Shown piece by piece: positions 48,155 to 60,524 of a DNA stretch of 60,524 bases. The notes under the pieces were generated by a model. That model made no database searches, was not told the DNA's origin, and saw nothing but the letters and a program-made list of their open reading frames with translations. Positions within the stretch are counted from its first letter, which is position 1; every line of letters starts with the position of its first letter. The DNA comes from Lachnospiraceae bacterium (GTDB taxonomy: Bacteria; Bacillota; Clostridia; Lachnospirales; Lachnospiraceae): NCBI GenBank assembly GCA_017540265.1, contig JAFYBJ010000014.1:1-60524 (forward strand). Direction: 5' to 3'. Both the position numbers and the translations under genes were made by a program.

Positions 48155-51100
48155 ATGAAAAAGAAAAACTGGATCGGCATATTCCAAAGAACAGTGGCGC
48201 TGCTGCTTGCAGCCATGCTTTTAGCTGATATGGAAGGGATGCGGGGATTTGGAACATTAACCGCCCTTGCAGACGAGGATTCGGGTATAGTGGAAGAGTC
48301 GAATTATCCCGATGAGCTGGAGCCGGAGGAGAGCATACAGATAGTTAATGATAATACAAGAGTTGCCTTCTGCTTTTATTCGGGTTCGGCGGAACTCTAT
48401 CTGAAGAATTTTGGTAACGGCTCCTTTACGGGGGATCCTACTTCAGCGACATCTGATACGTATACTGCCGGAGCAACTGCGACTGCGGTAAATGAGGATG
48501 TGATCAGTTCACCTTATGAAATAACCGGCTGGAAAAAAATAGGAGAAAAGGGGAATTCAGAACAGCACATAGTTGCATATGCGGCGAAGTTTTCAATGTT
48601 CTTCCAATATTGCCCGGATGGTGCCGATCCTGAGCTGGGCGTGACAGTGACCGCCTCCAGCATGATCACTTCGGGAACTACTAATGTGACATTCAATCTG
48701 CTGACCGAAGAAGTATTTATTTCGGAGTTGTCCAATACTTTTGAGGATTATACTATCGGCAGGCGTGAGCTTACCGGCTGGGAGTCGGATACGGATGAGC
48801 ACGAGCCGGGCGCTGAGATCACCATACCGTTTGAACCGGAAACAATGGTGTATTTTGACGCTATATGGGACAGCTACATTGATGTTACTTATGATCCAAA
48901 CGGCGGAGTCGGAAGTGCCATCACTGAAAAATCCTATATCACCGAAGGTGTGGATATAATGAGCACCACGCTCTTGTCTTCTGAAGAATGCTTTTTTTAC
49001 CGTGAAGGATATTATCTTGCAGGATGGGAGATATCCGCAGATGATTCTTCAAAAGTAAATGACAGCGGTCTCTATGAGCTGGGAGGCAGCTGTTTACATG
49101 TGACCGGAGCGGAAACACTTACATTTAACGCTGTGTGGGAAGAGATACCTTCCGTTACGGTTACTTATAGTTCCGGCGAGGGAACAGGAGAAAATTTACA
49201 GAAAGTCTACACATTTGAGCCGGAAGAAGTAACAGAATCAAAAAATATAGAATTGCTTTCCGAGGCATCATCGTTTACCCGTGAAGGTTATGAACTTGCC
49301 GGTTGGAAGCTTACGGAAAAGTCAAAAAGCACCGACGGAACTACTGTGAGCTACGAACTTGGAGGAACCTGCAGTTTAGTGAAAGATTGCGATGCCGCAA
49401 CATTTGAAGCTGTTTGGGCGGAAATAGAAAAGCCTTCCGTTACGGTTACGTATCGTCCAAACGGCGGAACAGGAGAAGCTGAATCGAAGATAATAATATT
49501 TGAACCGGACACCGGGGCGGATATGCGCAGCATCGAGCTGCTTTCGGAAGCCTCATTTACCCGTGAAGGATATGAGCTTGCCGGCTGGAAGCTTACAGAT
49601 GCGGAGAGCAGTGCCGATGAAAAGACGGATTACGATCTTGGAGAGTCCTGCAATTTCTGGGCTAACCGCGAAGAACTTATTTTCGATGCCGTATGGAAGG
49701 AAATAAAGAAACCCACAGTTACCGTAACCTATCGTCCGGGAGAGGGAAAGGGAACTGAAATCACAAAGAAGCTTGAATTTGATGCGGATACGGCAGGAAA
49801 AAGCCACAGCATCACGCTCTTATCCGAAGCCTCATTTACCCGCGACGGATATGAGCTTTCAGGCTGGAAGCTTACGGATAAAAACAACAGCTCAGACGGA
49901 ACCACAGACTACGAGCTCGGCGGAAGCTGCAGCGTAAAAGCAGATATCGAAGAGGTAACCTTCGATGCCGTATGGAAAGAAAAGGAGAAGGAGGAAGAAA
50001 AGAAAGAAGAGAAAAAAGAGGATCTGCTTAAGGGCGAAGTGAATCTTAAAATGGACAGCCGCTTCTATCTGGGAACCGAGATAGAATATGAGATAAAGAA
50101 GAATTCCAAGGGTGCTGTGACCGTTGAGTATAAAAAGAAAGATGCGAAGGATGATACCTATACTTCAAAGGAGCCTACGGAAGTAGGAACATATATCGCG
50201 CGTGCGAAGCTTAAGAAAACTTCCACCTATTCATCTGATACAGATACAAAAGAATTTGAAGTGGTATATCTTGATGTTCCTGAGGAGCCTTATACCTACA
50301 CGGAGGTAAAAAACAGCAAGGGTACCGTTAAGGATCTTAAGATCGTACCGGCTTCGGGATACCATATAGGCGTATCTCCTTCCGGGAAGTTTGAAACATC
50401 TGTTTTGCATTCTGCTGCAAAGACAGGGGGCTATGTACATTTAAGGAGAGATAAGGACGGTGCCATTACCGGGCCTGCAGCCCTTATTCCTTATACAGCG
50501 AAGGATGATCCTCAGATATCGCTTCCGGTAAAGATCTATGCAGGCGCAGGTTTTGAAGTGGAAGCGAGTGCCTTAAGTGAGGCTGTGCTTATAGTTATGT
50601 ATAAGGAATACGGGGCGCCGGATGAAACCTACACAACAGAAGTGCCTACAGCATATGGAAAATATACCGTAAGGATCACATCGTCTGCCGATGGTTTTTA
50701 CGCGCCCGTTAATTTTGAAAAGGATTTCAGCATCGACTATCTTGAAGCACCGGCTAAGGGGGCGGCACCGACGGGAGTAAAGGGAAACGGTGACTGGTAT
50801 ACCTCAGATGTTGTCCTTACGGCCCCCGACGGATATCTTGTAAGCACCAGCCGTGACGGTAAGTTTACTGAGTCTGTTACATGGAATGAGAATATAAAAG
50901 AATTGTTCTATAAGAGAAAGTCTGACAATGCCGTTACGGATGCAGTGAAGGTTTCATTTAAACTTAAGATAGACAAGGATATTCCGGAAGTGAGTTTTGA
51001 TCCCGCATACGGAGTGCAGGCGCCCCGTAACGGAGAAACGCTCAGGGTTTACGCCGACGAGCTGCGTTTTACATTCAGTGATCTGAATCTTAAGACTGTT

Positions 51101-51424
51101 ATCGCAGACGGTAAGGAATATGCTGCTTCAGACGGTTTGTTTGAAGTGTTGTTTGCAGCGGGTGAGGATGTCGAATCAAAGACCGTAACCGCATTTGATG
51201 AAGCAGGAAACAGCTATTCATTTACTGTTGAGATCTGGCCTGCATGGCGCAAGGATAATACGGTTCCGGAGGGGAAGGAAATCCTTTTGACTCAGGGAAT
51301 CGAATACAACTTAAAAGGCGAAAGCTCCTGGAAGATAAAAGGTGATAAAACCGTTTACAGTGGCGGAGGAAAGTTCTATATCAGAACATCCGGAAAATAT
51401 ACCTTCGGAAAAGCCGAAAAATGA
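48155..51424 (+). CDS. Large secreted surface protein with InlB-type repeats
   Basis: This 1089-residue exported protein has a signal peptide (RTVALLLAAMLLAD, likely cleavage after ALA about residue 39). Residues ~246-608 hold four ~90-residue repeats of the InlB B / Flg_new type, each with VTYxxxxGxG...FTREGYELAGWKLT...FDAVW. A Lys/Glu-rich linker follows (~609-623), then two MBG-like and one Ig-like beta domain. There is no LPxTG or other wall-anchoring motif, so it may stay attached by other contacts or be released. N-x-S/T tripeptides occur (N177-V-T; N577-N-S with Asp575 at -2). It overlaps the adenylate cyclase start by 4 bases. Confidence 0.88.
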   Translation: MKKKNWIGIFQRTVALLLAAMLLADMEGMRGFGTLTALADEDSGIVEESNYPDELEPEESIQIVNDNTRVAFCFYSGSAELYLKNFGNGSFTGDPTSATSDTYTAGATATAVNEDVISSPYEITGWKKIGEKGNSEQHIVAYAAKFSMFFQYCPDGADPELGVTVTASSMITSGTTNVTFNLLTEEVFISELSNTFEDYTIGRRELTGWESDTDEHEPGAEITIPFEPETMVYFDAIWDSYIDVTYDPNGGVGSAITEKSYITEGVDIMSTTLLSSEECFFYREGYYLAGWEISADDSSKVNDSGLYELGGSCLHVTGAETLTFNAVWEEIPSVTVTYSSGEGTGENLQKVYTFEPEEVTESKNIELLSEASSFTREGYELAGWKLTEKSKSTDGTTVSYELGGTCSLVKDCDAATFEAVWAEIEKPSVTVTYRPNGGTGEAESKIIIFEPDTGADMRSIELLSEASFTREGYELAGWKLTDAESSADEKTDYDLGESCNFWANREELIFDAVWKEIKKPTVTVTYRPGEGKGTEITKKLEFDADTAGKSHSITLLSEASFTRDGYELSGWKLTDKNNSSDGTTDYELGGSCSVKADIEEVTFDAVWKEKEKEEEKKEEKKEDLLKGEVNLKMDSRFYLGTEIEYEIKKNSKGAVTVEYKKKDAKDDTYTSKEPTEVGTYIARAKLKKTSTYSSDTDTKEFEVVYLDVPEEPYTYTEVKNSKGTVKDLKIVPASGYHIGVSPSGKFETSVLHSAAKTGGYVHLRRDKDGAITGPAALIPYTAKDDPQISLPVKIYAGAGFEVEASALSEAVLIVMYKEYGAPDETYTTEVPTAYGKYTVRITSSADGFYAPVNFEKDFSIDYLEAPAKGAAPTGVKGNGDWYTSDVVLTAPDGYLVSTSRDGKFTESVTWNENIKELFYKRKSDNAVTDAVKVSFKLKIDKDIPEVSFDPAYGVQAPRNGETLRVYADELRFTFSDLNLKTVIADGKEYAASDGLFEVLFAAGEDVESKTVTAFDEAGNSYSFTVEIWPAWRKDNTVPEGKEILLTQGIEYNLKGESSWKIKGDKTVYSGGGKFYIRTSGKYTFGKAEK

Positions 51425-53322
51425 AGTCTTCAGAGGATAAAGCAGGCAGAAATGCCCTCATCGTGGATATCCTGTTCATGCTTGGCGTGGCGGCAGCGGT
51501 ATTCCTGCTTACCGTGACCAATGCATTTTCGGGTCTGGATCATATACTTACTGATGCCCTCTATCAGGTACCGAGAGGTGTGTCCGGAAAGATAAAGATA
51601 ATAGGTGTTGATGAGGAGACTCTGGAAGTATACGGGCCTATCAATACCTGGTCCAGAGGAATTTATGCAAAGCTTATTGATGATCTTACGGGCAATCCGG
51701 AATTCGGCCCTGATATCATAGGCTTCGATATACAGTTTTCGGGACATGTGGACGAAGAGGGGGACAGGGAGTTTGCCCTTGCCGCAGAGAGGTACGGGAA
51801 TGCTGTGACCGTGATGCAGTTTCTTTACGAGCCGGTGCTTGTAAAGGATAAGGACGGGAACATGGGCTACAGGATAAAAGAGCTTTATCTGCCCTATGAT
51901 GAGCTAAGGGAAGTATGTGACACCGGCTTTTCAAATATATCCCAGGATTCAGACGGTACGGTAAGAAGGATAACCACGGTAACGGAATATGAGGGAAATG
52001 AATATTACAGTTTCCCTTATATGATATACAGCAGGTATTGCAGCCTTAACGGCACAGCGCCGGAAGCTTATCCCATTGATAAATACGGGCAATCCATCAT
52101 AGATTATTCCGGAAAGCCCGGTGATTACGAGTATATATCCATGGCCAGGGTGCTTAGCGGAGATATAGATCCAAGGGCTTTCGATGACTGCATCGTGCTT
52201 GTGGGAGCGTATGCGCCGGGGATGCAGGATGCCTTTAATGTACCTACAGGCGGATCCAGGCAGATGTACGGGGTTGAGGTCCATGCCAATATACTCCAGG
52301 GATTCATTCAGAATCGTTTTTCAATAAACGGCGATCCGAAGTTTTATGCTCTTATAACGGCTGTTTTTGCGGCGCTGCTCACTCTTTTATTCAGAAAAAA
52401 GCGTATGGTGGTATCTGCCGTATGTCTTATCATTGCGATAGTCTGTGAGCTTGCTGCCGGCGTGATGCTTCATAACAAAGGTACAGTCATAAGCTTGCTT
52501 TATTTCCCTCTGGTGATAGTTATCTCGTATGTGGTGTGCATGGTGGAGGGCTATATCACCGAATACAAAAACAGGGCGCGCATACTTAAGGCCTTCAGCA
52601 AATACGTGGCGCCCCAGATCATTGAGGAAATAGCCCGTAAAGGAAATTATAAGGTAAGCTTAGAAAGTAAGTCCAGGGATATTTCCGTACTATTCGTAGA
52701 TATCAGAGGCTTTACTACCATGTCGGAGGCTCTCTCGGCAGAGGATGTGGTAAAGATACTCAATCGTTATCTGGAACTGACCACGAAGGCTGTATTTGAT
52801 AATATGGGAACCCTTGATAAATTCGTGGGAGACTGTACGATGGCGGTATTCAATTCTCCCTTTGATCTGGAGGATTATGAATTCAAGAGCGTTTGCGCTG
52901 CGATGGATATCGCCATGGGAAGCGAGCCTTTAAATAAAATGATAGAAGAGGAATTCGGCCGTAAGATAGGCTTCGGAGTGGGGGTAAACTGCGGTCATGC
53001 CGTTGCCGGGAATATAGGCTGCGATTTCCGCATGGACTATACAGCTATAGGCGATACCGTAAATACGGCGGCAAGGCTCGAAGCCAATGCAGGCGCGGGC
53101 AAGGTCTATATAAGCGATGTGCTTTATGCAAGGATAAAAGAAAGAGTGGATGTGGAGGAAGTGGGAGTCATCCCTCTTAAGGGTAAGAAAAACGGTGTAG
53201 TAGTATATTCGGTGACTGCTGTTCATAAGGATATTCCCGCACCTTCCCCGGAAGAGATGGAACGAAGAAGAAAGCTGTACAATGTTGCAGGTAATATGCC
53301 GGAATCAACCGATGCAGAATAG
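51421..53322 (+). CDS. CHASE2-domain class III adenylate cyclase
   Basis: This 633-residue membrane protein has an N-terminal helix, an extracellular CHASE2 sensor (about residues 40-290; IKIIGVDEETLEVYGPINTW, GPDIIGFDIQF), three more membrane helices (~300-375) and a cytoplasmic class III cyclase. Metal Asp427 (FVDIRGFT) and Asp471 (KFVGDCT), adenine-type Lys467, and transition-state Asn548 and Arg552 (NTAARLE) are all present, so it should make cAMP. Such enzymes are uncommon in Clostridia. The ATG overlaps the surface-protein stop and a terminator follows, closing the operon. Confidence 0.93.
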   Translation: MKSSEDKAGRNALIVDILFMLGVAAAVFLLTVTNAFSGLDHILTDALYQVPRGVSGKIKIIGVDEETLEVYGPINTWSRGIYAKLIDDLTGNPEFGPDIIGFDIQFSGHVDEEGDREFALAAERYGNAVTVMQFLYEPVLVKDKDGNMGYRIKELYLPYDELREVCDTGFSNISQDSDGTVRRITTVTEYEGNEYYSFPYMIYSRYCSLNGTAPEAYPIDKYGQSIIDYSGKPGDYEYISMARVLSGDIDPRAFDDCIVLVGAYAPGMQDAFNVPTGGSRQMYGVEVHANILQGFIQNRFSINGDPKFYALITAVFAALLTLLFRKKRMVVSAVCLIIAIVCELAAGVMLHNKGTVISLLYFPLVIVISYVVCMVEGYITEYKNRARILKAFSKYVAPQIIEEIARKGNYKVSLESKSRDISVLFVDIRGFTTMSEALSAEDVVKILNRYLELTTKAVFDNMGTLDKFVGDCTMAVFNSPFDLEDYEFKSVCAAMDIAMGSEPLNKMIEEEFGRKIGFGVGVNCGHAVAGNIGCDFRMDYTAIGDTVNTAARLEANAGAGKVYISDVLYARIKERVDVEEVGVIPLKGKKNGVVVYSVTAVHKDIPAPSPEEMERRRKLYNVAGNMPESTDAE

Positions 53323-53349: not shown

Positions 53350-53385
53350 AAGACCGTCACAATGTAACGTGGCGGTCTTTTTTAT
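53350..53385 (+). terminator. Terminator closing the cyclase operon
   Basis: AAGACCGTCAC (53350-53360) and GTGGCGGTCTT (53369-53379) form an 11-bp stem with one G-T pair, followed by a T run. A TATAAT (53383-53388) just after it could start the next operon. Confidence 0.92.
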
Positions 53386-53411
53386 AATATAATTACTAAA
53401 ATTTCCAATAT

Positions 53412-53493: not shown

Positions 53494-53955
53494 ATGAAGA
53501 ATATGGTCGACATCGCTGTGGTGCTGGATGAAAAATATTCAGATCCAAAGGTCACTATACAGACGAAGGAAAAGACAAAGCAGGTAGAAAATATCATATA
53601 TGCCATTGAGAATATTTCTGACAACGATTTTCCTGTTATTCCTGCCTATAAGGATTCGTTTCTGGAATTTATTTCACAGAGGGATATCATCAGGATCTAT
53701 GTGCATAACCGTCGTGTTGTGATCGAAACAATATCCGGGGAATATGTGATAAGGAAGCCGCTGTCATCCGTTGAGGAACTCTTAAACGTTGAAAGATTTT
53801 TCCGTATCTCACAATCAGAGATAGTTAACCTTTATAAAGTAAAAGGCTTTGACTTAAGCGTGGCTGGGACCATAGGCATAGAATTTGATAACGGAAACAG
53901 ATCATGGGTGGCAAGAAGCCGTGTAAAGCTTCTTAAAGAGAGGCTTATGAAATGA
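53494..53955 (+). CDS. LytTR-domain transcription regulator
   Basis: This 153-residue regulator has a short N-terminal alpha/beta part and a C-terminal LytTR domain (FLEFISQRDIIRIYVHNRRV, FFRISQSEIVNLYKVKGF, RSRVKLLKERL). It pairs with DUF3021, a membrane protein that overlaps it, as in the common LytTR regulatory system of Firmicutes. The chosen ATG 53494 is preceded by GGAGCAG; an ATG at 53410 lies in the repeat. It leads the glycosylation operon and may control it. Confidence 0.9.
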   Translation: MKNMVDIAVVLDEKYSDPKVTIQTKEKTKQVENIIYAIENISDNDFPVIPAYKDSFLEFISQRDIIRIYVHNRRVVIETISGEYVIRKPLSSVEELLNVERFFRISQSEIVNLYKVKGFDLSVAGTIGIEFDNGNRSWVARSRVKLLKERLMK

Positions 53956-54461
53956 GAGACGGAGATATGAGTTTAAAAAACAGGATCATAGTGCTCTCAT
54001 CTTTAGGGTTGGCACTCGGAGTGCTGGTGGGGGATATTATCACAGCGCTCTCCGCAACTCACGAGTATAATGACGGCATGCTTTATGTCTGCACCAAAGA
54101 ACTAACAGAGGCTGTCGGCAGTGAGCTTGGAGCGTTTATATTGCAGACCCTTCTTTCAGGTCTGCTTGGCGCTGTGGGGATGGGACTTTCTTCCGTATAC
54201 CGGATAGAGAGCTGGAGCATAGCAAAAGCTACAGGAATTCATTTTTCCATTACGCTTGTCTTCTTTTATCTCACGGCATTTACTTTGAAATGGTGGAGTA
54301 TAAGGGATGCAGAGTGGTGTCTTATCATGCTTGCCATTTTCATTGCGGAATATCTGATCATATGGCTGGTAAATTATCTGACAAACAGGAAAAGTGTCAG
54401 GGAGATGAACAAAGCTTTAAATGAGATGAAGCTCAAAAACTCAGCGGAGAGTGAAAAATGA
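53952..54461 (+). CDS. DUF3021 membrane protein (LytTR partner)
   Basis: This 169-residue protein has four membrane helices (IIVLSSLGLALGVLVGDII; FILQTLLSGLLGAVGMGLS; FSITLVFFYLTAF; LIMLAIFIAEYLIIWLVNYL) and a basic tail, the DUF3021 layout. Such partners usually restrain their LytTR regulator. It overlaps the regulator by 4 bases and the GT4 gene by 4, so the regulatory pair and the glycan genes share a transcript. Confidence 0.88.
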   Translation: MRDGDMSLKNRIIVLSSLGLALGVLVGDIITALSATHEYNDGMLYVCTKELTEAVGSELGAFILQTLLSGLLGAVGMGLSSVYRIESWSIAKATGIHFSITLVFFYLTAFTLKWWSIRDAEWCLIMLAIFIAEYLIIWLVNYLTNRKSVREMNKALNEMKLKNSAESEK

Positions 54462-55582
54462 AGCTTACCTGGATAGTGCCTCATTTTCCGCCGCACGTAG
54501 GGGGAGGGGAGAAGCTCTACTGTGATGTCTGCAGTGAACTTGTAAAAAGAGGGTTTGATATAAGGGTGGTCACCAGCGCCTCAGGCGGTTTAAAAGGTCA
54601 TTATCGTATAAAGGGCATGGATGTTTATTACTGTGACTGGCCCATGCTCTTCGGGCATCCCATAGTAAGGTTTAAGGATATCATAAGACATATAAAGTGG
54701 TGTGACATAGTCCATACCGCGATCTACTCCACGGCCATAAAGACGAATCTTGCCGCGGCGCTCCTTGGTAAAAAATGCGTTACCACCATTCATGAGGTCA
54801 TGGGGGATAAATGGTTTTTCTTTGAGAAGAACCGCTTAAAGGCGATGGCTTTCAAGATATATGAAAAGCTTATCATAAGCCTTTGCTCTTACGTTCATGT
54901 GATATCGGAGGCTACTGCAGCTGATTTTAAAAAATACGGCGGAAGATGCAGACGTTTGTTTAAGATATATTGTTTTTTAGATTTGCCGCCAAAGTCACTT
55001 ATTGAAAAAGCGGACATTGAATTTAAGGAATTATTTTCCGTGAAGCCTGAAGAAAAGGGAATACTGTATTTCGGCAGGCCTGCAAAGAATAAGGGGATAT
55101 TCGTGCTCTTAAAAGCGATACGACTGTTTGCTTCTAAGGCTGATATTAATGGCAAGGCGGTTTTCTGCATGATACTGGCAGATGAGCCTGCAGACTGCAG
55201 AAAAAAAGTCCTGGAATATATAGATCAAAATAATATGTCTTCCTTTGTGAGGGTGATACCTTCGCTTCCCAGGGCAGAGCTTTTAAAGGCTGTATCGGGC
55301 TGTGACCTTTGCGTGATCCCTTCCGTAACGGAGGGCTTTGGTTATTCCGCGGCAGAGGCCTGTGCGCTTAAAGTACCGGTGATAGCTTCCGACGGGGGAT
55401 CTTTAAAAGAGGTTGTGAGCGGGAATTGTCTTTTCTTTAGGAACAGGGACAGCAGGGATCTTGCGGAAAAGCTTAATGAATTTATCAAAAACGGAACGGC
55501 TCATTTTATGTCCGTAAAGGAAAAGAGCTTTGACCGGGACAGGGTGACAGATGAATACATCAGAATGTATGGATCACTCTGA
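54458..55582 (+). CDS. GT4-family glycosyltransferase
   Basis: This 374-residue GT-B retaining enzyme has the N-terminal WIVPHFPPHVGGGEKLYCDV (acceptor-side loop) and the C-terminal nucleotide-sugar site PSVTEGFGYSAAEACALKVP with the E-x7-E pair. It is cytoplasmic or membrane-associated and would extend a lipid-linked sugar. The donor is unknown. It overlaps the flippase-like gene by 32 bases. Confidence 0.9.
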   Translation: MKLTWIVPHFPPHVGGGEKLYCDVCSELVKRGFDIRVVTSASGGLKGHYRIKGMDVYYCDWPMLFGHPIVRFKDIIRHIKWCDIVHTAIYSTAIKTNLAAALLGKKCVTTIHEVMGDKWFFFEKNRLKAMAFKIYEKLIISLCSYVHVISEATAADFKKYGGRCRRLFKIYCFLDLPPKSLIEKADIEFKELFSVKPEEKGILYFGRPAKNKGIFVLLKAIRLFASKADINGKAVFCMILADEPADCRKKVLEYIDQNNMSSFVRVIPSLPRAELLKAVSGCDLCVIPSVTEGFGYSAAEACALKVPVIASDGGSLKEVVSGNCLFFRNRDSRDLAEKLNEFIKNGTAHFMSVKEKSFDRDRVTDEYIRMYGSL

Positions 55583-56816
55583 AAATGGCAGCGCTTTTCT
55601 TAAGAAAAGCGATCTGATATGGACAATATTCGCAAATATCATAACAATTACGGCCGCGGTACTTATCGGGCTTTTCATGCCGGCGCTTACGGATTATGAG
55701 ACCTATGCCGGATACAGGGGATATACGCTTTTTGTGGCTTATGTGCAGTTTGTCCAGCTGGGTTTTGTAAACGGAATGTCGCTGCGATACGGAAATCTGG
55801 ATAAAAATAAGCTTCCTGCAGGGCTTTTCAGATCCTATACAAGATTTTTGATATTAAGCCAGTTTTTTATAATCCTGCTTGCGGCACCTGTGCTGTATGC
55901 GGCAAAGGGCTTTAAGCTAACGCCGTTTTTATTTGTGATACTGACCATACTTCCGGATAATATGAGGCTTTATTACGGAGCAGTATATGCAAATACCGGT
56001 AGATTTAAGGAAAATGCGCTCTGCCAGATCATATACAGGCTTTCACTCCTTATATGTTTTGCTGCGCTGTTTATAACAAAAAAGAACGGCTGGATATATT
56101 ATCTTGGCTGCACCCTTATATTAAACCTGCTTTCATTCCTTACCTATATCCTTGTCGATCCGTCACTTACATTTGGAAGAGCAGCAAGGGAAAGGGGCTT
56201 CTTTTCGGAAGTAAAGGAAAATATAAGGAGAGGTGCGCCTGTAATGTTTGGAGAGCAGCTTGGGATACTTATGCTTGGCGCCGACAGCATGTTTGCACTA
56301 TTTCTTTTTGACAGCAGGCAGTTTTCCTTTTATTCCTTTGCTGTATATGTGGTGGTGACAGCCTATACGGTATTAAATGCAGCAAATGCCGTGATATTTC
56401 CGTATCTTAAGCGTCTTGATAAAAAAGATATGGGAAGCAGGTACAGCATTTTAAAAAAGATGTCCCTTGGCATGTTTATCATCTCCGTTCCGTGCTTTAT
56501 CCCGGCACGCCTGCTTATAAACAGGTTTATGGGGAATTATGCAGGGGCTCTGCCATATCTCGATATCCTTATGTTTACACTGCTGTTCAGACTTCTTGGT
56601 GAGATGGCCTGCGCAAATGCCATGAAGGCCATGGATATGGAGAAGGAATTTTTTTATTCAAACCTTGCGGCATGCATACTTGCCTTTGCTGCAGATGCGC
56701 TTGCCTATGCGCTGTGGAAGGATTTAAGGATGATAGCCGCGGCAAGCGTACTGGTATACGCGGTATGGTTTTTTATCTGTGATATGAAGATAAGGCGCAG
56801 GTTACAAAAGATATGA
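55551..56816 (+). CDS. Wzx-like polysaccharide flippase
   Basis: This 421-residue MOP-superfamily transporter has about twelve membrane helices, beginning SDLIWTIFANIITITAAVLI and with a conserved central RGAPVMFGEQLGI region. It would move undecaprenyl-linked glycans across the membrane to the oligosaccharyltransferase encoded three genes later. ATG 55551 lies inside the GT4 gene; ATG 55569 is an alternative. Confidence 0.85.
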   Translation: MNTSECMDHSENGSAFLKKSDLIWTIFANIITITAAVLIGLFMPALTDYETYAGYRGYTLFVAYVQFVQLGFVNGMSLRYGNLDKNKLPAGLFRSYTRFLILSQFFIILLAAPVLYAAKGFKLTPFLFVILTILPDNMRLYYGAVYANTGRFKENALCQIIYRLSLLICFAALFITKKNGWIYYLGCTLILNLLSFLTYILVDPSLTFGRAARERGFFSEVKENIRRGAPVMFGEQLGILMLGADSMFALFLFDSRQFSFYSFAVYVVVTAYTVLNAANAVIFPYLKRLDKKDMGSRYSILKKMSLGMFIISVPCFIPARLLINRFMGNYAGALPYLDILMFTLLFRLLGEMACANAMKAMDMEKEFFYSNLAACILAFAADALAYALWKDLRMIAAASVLVYAVWFFICDMKIRRRLQKI

Positions 56817-57499
56817 AGGATTTACTGATAATCATTCCCGCATACAATGAAGCTGAGAATCTCCCTGATGTCATAAAGGCGTTAAGGGGGATGGTCGACA
56901 CGCCGCAGATACTGGTGGTGGATGACGGTTCTTTGGATGACACTTTTGATATCTGCAGGAAACTTGGGGTGAAGGCAGTAAGGCATAAAGTTAACTTAGG
57001 CTTATCCTCGGCTATAAGGACGGGCATGCAGTATGCCCTTGTGAAGGGATACCGCTATGCAATGCAGTTTGATGCGGACGGCCAGCATGATGCGTCTTAC
57101 GTAAAGGAACTTTATGACACGATAAAGAAATCAGGCGGAGATATAGTCATAGGCTCGCGATATCTGGAAAGTAAGGGAAATGCCAATGCCAGATATATGG
57201 GAGGCAGGGTGATATCGGGCTGCATAAGATTTATGACCGGAAAGAAGATAAAGGATCCGACTTCCGGCATGAGGGTATATTCAGACCGGGTGATGAAGCT
57301 CTTTACGGAATCATCCCTGTATTCACCGGAACCGGATACGTTATCTTATCTCATTAAAAAAGGCTTTAAGGTTTCGGAAACCGGCGTGGAGATGAAGGAG
57401 AGGATGAGAGGGAAGAGCTATCTCGATATCGTGGGATCTGCAAGATATATGTTCAGGATGTGCACATCCATACTTTTTATTTCGCTTATAAGGAGCTGA
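56813..57499 (+). CDS. GT2 DPM1/DPG-synthase-like glycosyltransferase
   Basis: This 228-residue GT-A enzyme has IPAYNEAENLPDVIKAL, VVDDGSLDDT and the metal site QFDADGQH, followed by IGSRYLE and DPTSGMRVY, as in polyprenyl-phosphate mannose or glucose synthases. The short C-terminal stretch is amphipathic. It probably makes a polyprenyl-phosphate sugar donor; DUF2304 next to it is a frequent partner. It overlaps the flippase by 4 bases. Confidence 0.9.
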   Translation: MKDLLIIIPAYNEAENLPDVIKALRGMVDTPQILVVDDGSLDDTFDICRKLGVKAVRHKVNLGLSSAIRTGMQYALVKGYRYAMQFDADGQHDASYVKELYDTIKKSGGDIVIGSRYLESKGNANARYMGGRVISGCIRFMTGKKIKDPTSGMRVYSDRVMKLFTESSLYSPEPDTLSYLIKKGFKVSETGVEMKERMRGKSYLDIVGSARYMFRMCTSILFISLIRS

Positions 57500-57500
57500 C

Positions 57501-57857
57501 ATGCCGTTAATGTTAAGGATCTTATTATTAATATCATCGCTTTTAAGTTTTATTTTTGTGGCGAGAAGGCTAAAAAAATCAGCGGTGAAGCTTTATGATA
57601 CCACCTTCTGGATCTTTCTTTCCACGGTGTTTGTTATCCTAAGCGCTTTTCCGGGGCTTGGAATAGGCCTGGCAGAGCTTATAGGCATACAGTCTCCCGT
57701 AAATCTTATATTCCTGATAATAATATTCTGCCTTCTGGCACATTGTTTTGTACAGTCCTTAAGGTTTTCGGCTCTTGAGGATAAATTCGAACGCTTTGTT
57801 GAAAAAGATGCTTTAAGGGATGAGGCTGCCACGGAAAAGCCCGGAGGAGAAGAGTGA
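57501..57857 (+). CDS. DUF2304 membrane protein
   Basis: This 118-residue protein has three membrane helices (LRILLLISSLLSFIFVARRL; FWIFLSTVFVILSAFPGLGI; LIFLIIIFCLLAHCFVQSLRF) and a charged tail, matching DUF2304, a family often found beside GT2 enzymes of this type. It overlaps the oligosaccharyltransferase gene by 4 bases. Confidence 0.85.
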   Translation: MPLMLRILLLISSLLSFIFVARRLKKSAVKLYDTTFWIFLSTVFVILSAFPGLGIGLAELIGIQSPVNLIFLIIIFCLLAHCFVQSLRFSALEDKFERFVEKDALRDEAATEKPGGEE

Positions 57858-60139
57858 ATAAGCAGGTGATAAAAAATATCATAATATCCGTATTCTGTAT
57901 GCTTTTGCTGATGTCGGGAGCGTTTATGTTCAGGCTTTTTGCCCATAATAAGACAGTATCGGAAATGGGTGAGGAATATATCGATCCCGAAACAGAGCTC
58001 CCGTATCTTACTGAAATGGATTCCTATTATCATCTAAGGATGACAAAGGATATTGCTGAGACAGGCGTACCCGGTGGCGGGTATAAGGATGGTGAAGCCT
58101 GGGATTCTTTAAGCTATGCCCCTTACGGAAGGAGCACAGCGGAATACAAGCCTTTGATGGCGGATACCGCTGTCTTTGCAAAAAAGCTTATTTCACAGTT
58201 TAAAACTGTTTCAATTGAGCAAGTTGCTTACTGGCTGGGGGCTGTGCTTTCCGTGCTCATAGTGATCCCTGTGTTTATCATGGCTTTTAAGCTTGGCGGT
58301 TTTATACCTGCCATAATTGCCGCATTTTTAGCTTCCGTTAATTACGGATATTTCGTTCATACGACACCGGGCTTTTATGATACGGATAATGTGCTTTCCG
58401 TGGGGGCCTGTCTTTTCTTCCTCTCGGCGCTCCTGCTTGCGGGTGCGTTTAAAAAAGATGATGAAGGAAAAAAGAGATATGTATCCAAGGCTTTAAGCGT
58501 ATTGTTCTTTGCGCTCACTCTTGGCCTTCTTATCTTTTCCTGGAGTGCTTATGCATTGTTCGTCGGAATACTTGCGGCTTCCTCGGCTTTGTATCTTATT
58601 GCCGCAGGATGCCTGGGTGGAAAGAATGGTGTTAAGAGGTCTTATCTTATACCTGTTTTGATACTTTTTATTTCCTTTGTGCTTGTACTCATACTGGACA
58701 GGGCGTTTTTCAGAAATCTCATAGCGCAGTTTATGTCCGTTTTTGCGGGTGGTAAAGGTATATTCCCGGATGCATATGTATCCGTTTCCGAAATGAGAAA
58801 GCCTGCCCTTACAGCAGGAGGACTTACGGGACTCTTCCAGATGAAGGTGCTTTCGGGAAAAAATATCGGCGTATTGAATGCCGTTGGCGGGATAGTTCCT
58901 TCGGGACTTGCCCTTGCTATGTGCATCATGCTCATAAAGGGGATGATAAAAAAGAAGGATGCGCGCTTTGATCATATACTGCTTGTGGTCTGGTATCTCG
59001 TATCTTTCATACTGGCTTTCAGAAGCTGGCGTTTTATCATGCTCTTTGCGGTGCCGGTAGCTATACTTGCGGGAATGTTTGCCGGATGGCTCATATCGCT
59101 TATGAGGGAAAAGAAGATGATGGACTATCCGGTATATGCGGCGATGCTCATCCTGCTCATCATCTTCCCTGCGCTCTACGGTGTATACAGATCCACAGGG
59201 GATTCAAGGCCTTCAGTAAGCATGAGCCTTCATGAGGGCCTTGCAAATATAAGGGATAACTCATCCGAAAACGTGATACTTGCAAGCTGGTGGGATCTTG
59301 GATACTTCTATGAGGAAAAGGCTGAACGAAGGACAGTGTTTGACGGAGGCTCCCAGAACGGTATACGTGTTTACTGGGTGGGAAAAGCCTTATCCACAAC
59401 AGATGAAAGATTATCAAAAAATATCCTGCGGATGCTTGCGGGAGAGGGCGATACCGCTACGGATGAGATGATAGCTGAATTTGGAGAGGAGCAGGATACT
59501 TTAAGCTTTATGACTGCCCTCCTTTCGGGGACAAAGGAAGGGGCGGTAGATGAGCTTAAAGGAAAGGGGCTTTCCATAGAGGAAGCAGAGAGGCTTGGAA
59601 GTCTTCTCTTTCCTGAAACGGAAGATGAGATACTCCTTCTCATCACACCGGATATGTTTTCAATTTCAAACTGGTTTTATACCTTTGGCACCTGGGGAGA
59701 AGAAGGTGTGGATGAGGATGATTATTCTGTGCTGTTTGGCCCGTCACAGGTGGATATGAGCAGAGGAGAAGCTGCATGGCGCTTTAACGGCAAGGAGCAG
59801 CCTTTTGATCTTGTCCTTAAAAGGGAGGATGGCAGATATGAAGCACACACAAGGGCTGTGAATGAAGGCGATGCCATACCTGTAGTGGACAGAGTGGTGA
59901 TCAGGGAAGGCGGCATGATGTTTAATGAGCAGCTTGCGGATGTATCCGACAATGATACAGGAATAGTGGTTTATCTGGAGATACGAGGGGATGAGGATCC
60001 GATGATGACGGTAATGACGGATGAGCTTTATGATTCCGTATTCGGGAAACTCTTCTTTGGTAATACAGAGGATATGCAATGCTTCAGACCGTCTGCTTAC
60101 GGAAACGGATACCTGAATGTATATAGTGTACAGCCGTAA
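57854..60139 (+). CDS. STT3/PglB-type oligosaccharyltransferase
   Basis: This 761-residue membrane protein has an N-terminal region of about 11-13 helices and an exported C-terminal domain. The catalytic motifs of STT3/PglB/AglB enzymes are visible: Asp56 in EMDSYYHLRM, the DxD-type Asp176-T-Asp178 in TTPGFYDTDN, and W479-W480-D481-L-G (WWDxG) in ASWWDLGYFYEE, followed by VFDGGSQ. These bind the lipid-linked glycan, the metal and the sequon. The enzyme would transfer a glycan to Asn of exported proteins. The gene is the last of the LytTR-GT4-flippase-GT2-DUF2304 operon. The residual possibility is a GT-C enzyme with another acceptor. Confidence 0.88.
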   Translation: MNKQVIKNIIISVFCMLLLMSGAFMFRLFAHNKTVSEMGEEYIDPETELPYLTEMDSYYHLRMTKDIAETGVPGGGYKDGEAWDSLSYAPYGRSTAEYKPLMADTAVFAKKLISQFKTVSIEQVAYWLGAVLSVLIVIPVFIMAFKLGGFIPAIIAAFLASVNYGYFVHTTPGFYDTDNVLSVGACLFFLSALLLAGAFKKDDEGKKRYVSKALSVLFFALTLGLLIFSWSAYALFVGILAASSALYLIAAGCLGGKNGVKRSYLIPVLILFISFVLVLILDRAFFRNLIAQFMSVFAGGKGIFPDAYVSVSEMRKPALTAGGLTGLFQMKVLSGKNIGVLNAVGGIVPSGLALAMCIMLIKGMIKKKDARFDHILLVVWYLVSFILAFRSWRFIMLFAVPVAILAGMFAGWLISLMREKKMMDYPVYAAMLILLIIFPALYGVYRSTGDSRPSVSMSLHEGLANIRDNSSENVILASWWDLGYFYEEKAERRTVFDGGSQNGIRVYWVGKALSTTDERLSKNILRMLAGEGDTATDEMIAEFGEEQDTLSFMTALLSGTKEGAVDELKGKGLSIEEAERLGSLLFPETEDEILLLITPDMFSISNWFYTFGTWGEEGVDEDDYSVLFGPSQVDMSRGEAAWRFNGKEQPFDLVLKREDGRYEAHTRAVNEGDAIPVVDRVVIREGGMMFNEQLADVSDNDTGIVVYLEIRGDEDPMMTVMTDELYDSVFGKLFFGNTEDMQCFRPSAYGNGYLNVYSVQP

Positions 60140-60242: not shown

Positions 60243-60308
60243 GTGTCATCCTGAACATCACCTGGTGTCATCCTGAACATCACCCGGTGTCATCCTGAAC
60301 ATCACCTG
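60243..60308 (+). repeat. 22-bp tandem repeat, three copies
   Basis: Three copies of gtgtcatcctgaacatcacc plus two bases (one with a single change) lie back to back and lead into the palindromic repeat at 60311. Each begins with the GTCATCCTGA core of the dispersed repeat. Confidence 0.9.
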
Positions 60309-60310
60309 GT

Positions 60311-60337
60311 GTCATCCTGAGCGAAGCGAAGGATCTC
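60311..60337 (+). repeat. Palindromic dispersed repeat, short form
   Basis: GTCATCCTGAGCG joined directly to AAGCGAAGGATCTCA, with no inner hairpin insert. It ends 26 bases before the ATG at 60363. The 220 bases 60140-60362 hold only these repeats and the promoter-like element. Confidence 0.8.
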
Positions 60338-60362: not shown

Positions 60363-60524
60363 ATGTTCAAACTGAAAACACTACGAAGACTGACAAGATT
60401 CGCCATGTGCTTTTATGTGTTCTCATACTGCATGTCATTTACCGTATGCGCGGAGGAATATCCCTTCCATGATGCATCGGCAAATGAGATAGGTTTTTAT
60501 GCAGGCAATGAGAGCACTGATGAG
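60363..60524 (+). CDS. Secreted protein, partial (runs off the window)
   Basis: The first 54 codons are present. A signal peptide is clear: basic N-terminus (FKLKTLRRLTRF), hydrophobic core (MCFYVFSYCMSFTV) and cleavage after VCA/EE near residue 30. A strong AAGGAGGT site precedes the ATG. The mature part begins EEYPFHDAS and includes NES, an N-x-S tripeptide. Family cannot be told from this fragment. It follows the glycosylation operon and could be one of its targets, which is inference. Confidence 0.8.
   Translation, partial: MFKLKTLRRLTRFAMCFYVFSYCMSFTVCAEEYPFHDASANEIGFYAGNESTDE

Follow-up and report, generated by a model that had tools for sequence, protein, structure and literature searches.

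The stretch analysed here, referred to as the window, is the entire 60,524-nucleotide contig JAFYBJ010000014.1 (C55) of a Lachnospiraceae bacterium, from an assembly (GCA_017540265.1) of 1.9 Mb that is 72.9% complete. Between positions 53494 and 60139 it carries seven genes with intergenic distances of -4, -4, -32, -4, +1 and -4 bases, the last of which encodes an STT3/PglB/AglB-type oligosaccharyltransferase (OST). A first-pass annotation, made by a model from the sequence, had proposed an N-glycosylation operon at this position; all seven overlapping or abutting frames were found where it had placed them, but it had overlooked an eighth gene that starts at 60363, 223 bases past the STT3 gene, and runs off the contig after 54 codons. 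The sequence evidence is best read as a Lachnospiraceae operon whose OST has a sequon-dense surface substrate of its own. The features of the region are as follows.

53350..53379, + strand: terminator-like hairpin from a pattern scan, 11 pairs then a T-rich tail, between the CHASE2-cyclase gene and the operon; a consensus match only, with 12 such sites in the window against 5.6 expected
53494..53955, + strand: LytTR DNA-binding regulator (PF04397, E 5.3e-20)
53952..54461, + strand: DUF3021 membrane protein (PF11457, E 9.5e-25), four hydrophobic segments
54458..55582, + strand: GT4 glycosyltransferase (PF00534, PF13692 and PF13439 above cut-off; homologue in locus L015 69% identical)
55551..56816, + strand: polytopic membrane protein, candidate flippase (421 aa, 10 hydrophobic segments, no Pfam family)
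56813..57499, + strand: DPM1-like GT2, candidate polyprenyl-phosphate sugar synthase (PF00535, E 2.2e-25)
57501..57857, + strand: DUF2304 small membrane protein, GacJ-like (PF10066, E 8.1e-22)
57854..60139, + strand: STT3/PglB/AglB-type OST (GTG start, 761 aa; PF02516 and PF21436, motifs, fold)
60243 to 60320, + strand: tandem repeat of 22 bases, 3.5 copies, in the gap between STT3 and the secreted-protein gene
60312-60335, + strand: 24-base element TCATCCTGAGCGAAGCGAAGGATC in the same gap, a single copy in the window
60363..60524, + strand: start of the secreted-protein gene, predicted glycosylation substrate (54 aa, ending with the contig; signal-peptide family A3, E 1e-24)

Six of the seven genes named by the first-pass annotation (LytTR, DUF3021, GT4, GT2, DUF2304 and STT3) are borne out by Pfam. 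The longest LytTR frame starts at 53410, but the homologue in L015, at 78% identity, begins to align at residue 29, the position of the start at 53494 that had been chosen. DUF3021 genes commonly adjoin LytTR genes.

The STT3 protein matches PF02516 at 128.9 bits (cut-off 24.5, E 4.7e-37) and STT3-PglB_core, PF21436, at 33.6 bits (cut-off 23, E 6.4e-8). Its motifs are EMD (residues 54-56), DTD (176-178), SVSE (310-313), WWDLG (479-483), DGGS (497-500) and MFSI (601-604), so that Asp56, D-T-D and WWDLG stand at exactly the residues given by the first-pass annotation, which had named the PF02516 profile as a check on its proposal. This set corresponds to the OST motifs (two DXD, TIXE/SVSE, WWDYG, DGGK-type and DK/MI) listed in an excerpt of PMC8342417, where SVSE, WWDxG and MxxI are associated with binding of the peptide sequon and the SVSE form is assigned to Eukarya. 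Exact SVSE occurs in 15 of 43 aligned rows, the window included. An AlphaFold model (pLDDT 88) matches PglB, STT3A and AglB end to end, with a GT-C membrane fold and a C-terminal globular domain like that of PglB; the comparison with PglB and AglB that had also been suggested thus returned their common fold. The scores fall below the cut-offs of both the PglB equivalog NF050801 (47.1 bits vs 1300) and the archaeosortase-associated OST TIGR04154 (80.8 bits vs 450). The protein is classed as a member of the STT3/AglB/PglB OSTs, and transfer to Asn is predicted.

The Bacillota OSTs lie apart from those of Helicobacter (three PglB rows) and the Desulfovibrio type in a tree made by a quick method from 80 rows minus ten that were short, near copies or of odd length (L040, L052, L053, L055, L078 and L079, then L085, L093, L103 and L110). 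This tree, whose outgroups came only from one peptide-pattern scan and on which the Bacillota label requires two changes, supports that separation and nothing beyond it.

A contig scan across genomes gave 83 confirmed stretches, of which 79 loci were kept. The relatives of the window OST comprise 22 loci (L033-L053 and L055) from 20 assemblies, with STT3 at least 41% identical; many are truncated. Their labels are Lachnospiraceae, Clostridia or further Bacillota names, several carry rumen or gut in their titles, and L037 belongs to strain MC2017. The survey of gene order advised by the first-pass annotation found the sequence GT4-membrane protein-GT2-DUF2304-STT3 repeated in L036, L037 and L055 (where the STT3 gene is truncated); L034 has these genes in a different arrangement. 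DUF2304 is present in 12 of the 22 loci and a GT2 of the window kind in 13.

The eighth gene encodes a protein with an N-terminal signal peptide containing RRLTRFAMCFYVFSYCMSFTVCAEE. In L033, the nearest relative (74% STT3 identity), a near-identical protein start directly follows STT3. The signal-peptide profile, A3, was built from 15 training rows that include the window and exclude L033, and it matches 17 of the 22 loci; a whole-genome search with it gave matches in 8 of 11 genomes. The signal-peptide gene lies on other contigs for L036, L045 and L049, and the L055 assembly has it on the L053 contig. Altogether, 19 of the 20 assemblies that carry an OST of this clade have it; thirteen of the 20 contributed training rows, and six of the other seven match. 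Among 397 genomes of the family, strong matches (E <=7.2e-11) are confined to G000, G052 and G160, the same three whose STT3 falls in this clade; G000 and G052 were training genomes and G160 was not. Six further genomes match at E 8.9e-4 or weaker; two of them were inspected and neither was sequon-rich.

Behind the common signal peptide the proteins have unlike bodies, which share sequon enrichment: beta-helix with Big_2, a family without a Pfam match, and Big_3_5. A substrate model built from alignment A7 (4 rows, part of the L034 protein) has a mean pLDDT of 62, is beta-helix-like at residues ~63-343 and has no Foldseek match at E 0.001. L033 and L048 come from one assembly (G822), which has two OST genes of the clade, each with its own signal-peptide protein; these are possibly private OST-substrate pairs. 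In L044 (12343-13419) a short signal-peptide protein ends in a sortase-like C terminus (PQTGD, a hydrophobic stretch and arginines), and some substrates may therefore be wall-anchored.

In 16 signal-peptide proteins tested singly, N-X-S/T sequons occur at 1.6-3.3 times the expected number, and in 15 of them (1.7-3.3 times) at most 9 of 1000 shuffles reach the observed count. The protein of L037 (strain MC2017) is 1267 aa long and has 54 sequons. The enrichment is specific: at position +2 after Asn, Thr is enriched 3.2-fold and Ser 1.7-fold and no other residue is (14 proteins), and Pro at +1 is avoided (5/416 vs 43/578). Asp or Glu at -2 is not favoured (36 of 411 sequons vs 75 of 583 other Asn residues), so that there is no sign of a Campylobacter-type extended sequon. 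Where relatives were compared, between one third and two thirds of sequons are positionally conserved (e.g. 23/43 and 12/35), which indicates that density outlasts position. Outside the 16 stand L040 (a near copy of L039; 30 sequons vs 12.3 expected), L046 (219 aa, some letters unknown; 13 vs 4.1), the visible 170 residues of L033 (6 vs 2.2), L047, L139, L138 and, being too short, L053 and the window.

A locus screen covered 766 open reading frames (ORFs) of at least 200 aa in L033-L111. Fifteen have a shuffle z above 4: ten with the signal peptide, and five other large proteins that lie next to, or four genes from, an STT3 of other Clostridia clades. Because all 766 lie by design within ~10 kb of STT3, an outside control was needed; it comprised 37 ORFs of at least 400 aa from 18 stretches chosen by Big_2 matches, in 18 congeners without this STT3. 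Their maximum z is 3.6 and their mean 0.41, and on the same scale 11 of the 16 proteins exceed the control maximum. Other controls gave 5 sequons vs 5.9 for the window gene at 48155, 63 vs 63.8 for 41 window ORFs of at least 200 aa pooled, and 29 vs 27.8, 16 vs 9.9 and 5 vs 6.2 for ORFs from two stretches of G000 picked by Big_2 matches. A general enrichment of surface proteins in sequons is rejected for the controls tested, which are near expectation. The sequon statistics support Asn as the probable acceptor, and it is highly likely that the neighbouring secreted protein is N-glycosylated by this OST.

The five other large proteins (L060, 4662-7877; L063, 5139-9812; L075, 1975-5082; L076, 2369-5287; L078, 2150-5068) have z values of 4.3-7.1 and are without the A3 signal peptide; those of L076 and L078 are 94% identical. 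In L063, LytTR and DUF3021 genes directly precede the sequon-rich protein.

The GT2 has its best NCBIfam matches below cut-off, to PpgS (106.1 bits vs 370) and to AglJ, TIGR04182 (63.7 bits vs 325), and falls short of assignment as AglJ. Its closest solved structure is dolichol-phosphate-mannose synthase (5mlz, E 1.2e-14). DUF2304 is a domain of GacJ-like proteins according to an excerpt of PMC8327497, and a DPM1-like GT2 followed by DUF2304 reproduces the arrangement of the GacI/GacJ pair. The polyprenyl-phosphate donor proposed in the first-pass annotation fits these two predicted functions; for undecaprenyl phosphate as the donor lipid, taken by itself, the chances appear evenly balanced.

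The 421-aa membrane protein had been called a flippase, a name that the searches did not substantiate: it has no match above cut-off in Pfam or NCBIfam and none to the MOP/Wzx flippases of PF01943. Homology with the Polysacc_synt type that sister loci carry was looked for with hhalign and not found (probability 0.2 percent). The window type is present in five of the 22 loci and the Polysacc_synt type in nine, never together; eight have neither by these profiles, and one of the eight, L051, has a flippase-LicD fusion. Pfam confirms the Polysacc_synt family for L015 and L039. Solely because the two types are mutually exclusive has the name candidate flippase been retained. LicD genes occur in six of the 22 loci (by Pfam for L014, L039 and L041), adjoining the flippase gene or fused to it (L039, 7517-8473; L041, 7556-8473; L014, 6261-8615, the same as L051), and the glycan of these loci may bear a phospho-substituent such as phosphocholine.

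A variant of the proposal retains N-glycosylation of the same kind but has the glycan carried on undecaprenyl diphosphate and started by a phosphoglycosyltransferase encoded elsewhere in the genome, the GT2/DUF2304 pair making an undecaprenyl-phosphate sugar for a side reaction. The source genome has three PF02397 phosphoglycosyltransferases on other contigs, which leaves room for such a donor, and Polysacc_synt-type flippases, which usually carry diphosphate-linked glycans, are in the operon of nine relatives. None of the three enzymes is within the window cluster, however, and the seven genes include no second GT-C enzyme to use the undecaprenyl-phosphate sugar. In addition, GT2, DUF2304 and STT3 are linked even in contigs of distant label: GT4-GT2-DUF2304-STT3 in L087 (Myxococcota) and L093 (Syntrophobacterales), and GT2-DUF2304-STT3 in L082 (a Tenericutes metagenome-assembled genome), with DUF2304 confirmed by Pfam in all three. 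We regard this variant as a serious candidate with a somewhat less than even chance of being correct. In these three contigs DUF2304 adjoins STT3 (L087, 2340-6631; L093, 7819-11479; L082, 8865-11962), which suggests that a bacterial N-glycosylation module with DUF2304 is more widespread.

The GacI/GacJ-like pair (GT2 and DUF2304, as in the excerpt of PMC8327497) would also be expected in a three-component system in which the acceptor of the STT3-like GT-C enzyme is a cell-wall polysaccharide and not a protein. The third component of the GacI/GacJ system is the GT-C protein GacL. In the window, by contrast, the third gene encodes a complete OST that has SVSE, WWDxG and MxxI motifs, whose sequon-binding roles are those given in the PMC8342417 excerpt, and the adjacent secreted proteins show selection for sequons; a polysaccharide acceptor is very unlikely.

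It could also be argued that the OST is real and that the sequon density of its neighbours is a by-product of beta-helix or immunoglobulin-like repeats. Some of the proteins contain Chlam_PMP repeats in which N-C-T-F is recurrent, and the 37 Big_2-chosen ORFs of the OST-less congeners are slightly enriched when pooled (360 vs 295.9). The excess nevertheless survives when Cys at +1 is excluded (in 15 of 16 proteins no more than 3 of 1000 shuffles reach the count) and persists beyond residue 450 in 10 of the 11 proteins of sufficient length. Moreover, unlike bodies that share only the signal peptide are also sequon-rich, and the excess is confined to Thr and Ser at +2 with avoidance of proline, which together make a repeat by-product decidedly improbable. 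That the enzyme C- or O-glycosylates proteins, as a DPY19- or PMT-like GT-C, is hardly credible.

The proposed N-glycosylation of a dedicated surface protein has several points against it. It rests on sequence evidence, and the secreted proteins are related, so that pooled counts are not independent and the per-protein figures should bear the argument. Among these, there is no clear enrichment in L014, a protein shared with L051 (10 sequons vs 6.2, 74 of 1000 shuffles as high), L123 shows no enrichment beyond residue 450 (3 vs 5.1), and L043, L044, L050, L137 and L014 do not exceed the control maximum z of 3.6; L047 (2 vs 1.6), L139 (5 vs 3.3) and L138 (1 vs 0.1) are short or truncated and little informative. 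The window protein itself is visible for 54 residues with one sequon, and the A3 profile finds no match in the L052 genome. The MxxI motif varies among relatives and is not conserved across alignment A4, the window membrane protein is not a recognised flippase, and LytTR with DUF3021 is near the OST in only one of the 22 relatives. Finally, Clostridium aminophilum and AD3010 have a related STT3 for which these searches found no sequon-dense partner. The loci concerned, L056 and L057 (C. aminophilum) and L054 (AD3010), have STT3 at 34-35% identity; none has a sequon-rich neighbour above z 3, and the signal-peptide profile is unmatched in the L054 and L057 genomes.

The N-glycosylation operon with an STT3/PglB-type enzyme is supported when these points are set beside the evidence above, and the tests that the first-pass annotation offered for its refutation, where computable, did not refute it. 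Computation establishes the family, fold and motifs of the OST, the recurrence of the gene set, and the sequon pattern with its tie to the OST clade. We infer the biochemical steps, the sugar order, the role of the candidate flippase, how the operon is regulated and which kind of lipid is the donor, as follows. By analogy with the related systems, the GT2, aided by DUF2304, would load the first sugar onto undecaprenyl phosphate; the GT4 would lengthen the lipid-linked glycan, and the polytopic membrane protein would move it to the outer face. STT3 would then transfer the glycan to Asn in N-X-T/S of exported proteins, the main acceptor being the dedicated sequon-dense surface protein with its private signal peptide, encoded directly downstream. 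LytTR-DUF3021 may control expression of the operon.

The system resembles Campylobacter PglB and its pgl locus in having a single-subunit bacterial OST with the same fold and motifs, encoded with its glycosyltransferases. It differs in falling below the PglB equivalog cut-off, in lying apart from the three Helicobacter PglB rows in the tree, and in having GT2/DUF2304 and a dedicated substrate gene but no phosphoglycosyltransferase in the cluster. The sequon of C. jejuni is D/E-X-N-X-S/T (excerpt of PMC9561416), whereas the window-clade sequons are without the acidic preference at -2. In Haloferax, AglJ and other glycosyltransferases build the chain on dolichol phosphate in steps, and AglB transfers it to the surface-layer protein (excerpt of PMC3871713); the window GT2 has a weak, sub-threshold likeness to AglJ, but here the host is bacterial, the genes form one operon with a regulator, DUF2304 is present and the lipid donor is putative. 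The order GT2, then DUF2304, is shared with GacI/GacJ of streptococcal cell-wall polysaccharide, but the partner in the window is an OST and the acceptor is likely protein. As with eukaryotic STT3A/B, the sequon is the minimal N-X-S/T with T preferred and the SVSE motif is exact; unlike in STT3A/B, no partner subunits were seen, and DGG (with MxxI in the window) is as in Bacteria and euryarchaea. A few bacterial homologues are placed inside the euryarchaeal clade in PMC4973528, a paper in which the string 'clostridi' is absent.

Asn glycosylation is a modification familiar chiefly from animals, plants and archaea; Campylobacter and the like are its best-known bacterial hosts. To our knowledge, demonstrations of bacterial OST-based N-glycosylation come mostly from Campylobacterota and some deltaproteobacteria, and a literature search at the level of titles and abstract openings found, among the entries listed, no account of it in Bacillota. 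OSTs as such are known; what appears to be new here is one that falls outside PglB by the NCBI cut-off, shows no preference for an extended sequon, is separate in the tree and is provided with a dedicated substrate. It is somewhat more likely than not that Clostridia contain at least one lineage of single-subunit OSTs that recognise a minimal sequon like that of eukaryotes and use a lipid donor made by DPM1/DUF2304, each with its own private-signal-peptide surface glycoprotein bearing tens of N-glycans. If so, true OST-based N-glycosylation would extend to Gram-positive-type bacteria as dedicated OST-substrate pairs. Such bacteria would then have a means to dress their surface, glycoengineering would gain a single-subunit enzyme of relaxed sequon, and there would be an independent example of OST-acceptor co-evolution. 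Since the sequons leave an imprint in the genomes, the claim is testable in the sequenced strain MC2017.

The distribution of the enzyme is sparse. Among 397 genomes of the family, eight have a PF02516 match above cut-off; among 398 from the phylum there are two, the second scoring 25.5 bits. The STT3 protein is matched in 1 of 35 genomes of its genus, some assemblies in these sets being incomplete; with so few matches at each level, a broad trait is rejected. Mis-binning of the contig is also rejected: seven congeners have the CHASE2 gene that adjoins the operon, at 68-73% identity. The operon genes had no tblastn match at E 1e-8 in four congener stretches, and because the CHASE2 neighbour is common to congeners while the operon genes are not matched there, the operon has the appearance of an accessory island within its genus. 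Upstream of it, 48155-53322 encodes a large surface protein with Flg_new repeats and then the CHASE2-adenylate cyclase, a pair that is adjacent in three of the four congener stretches.

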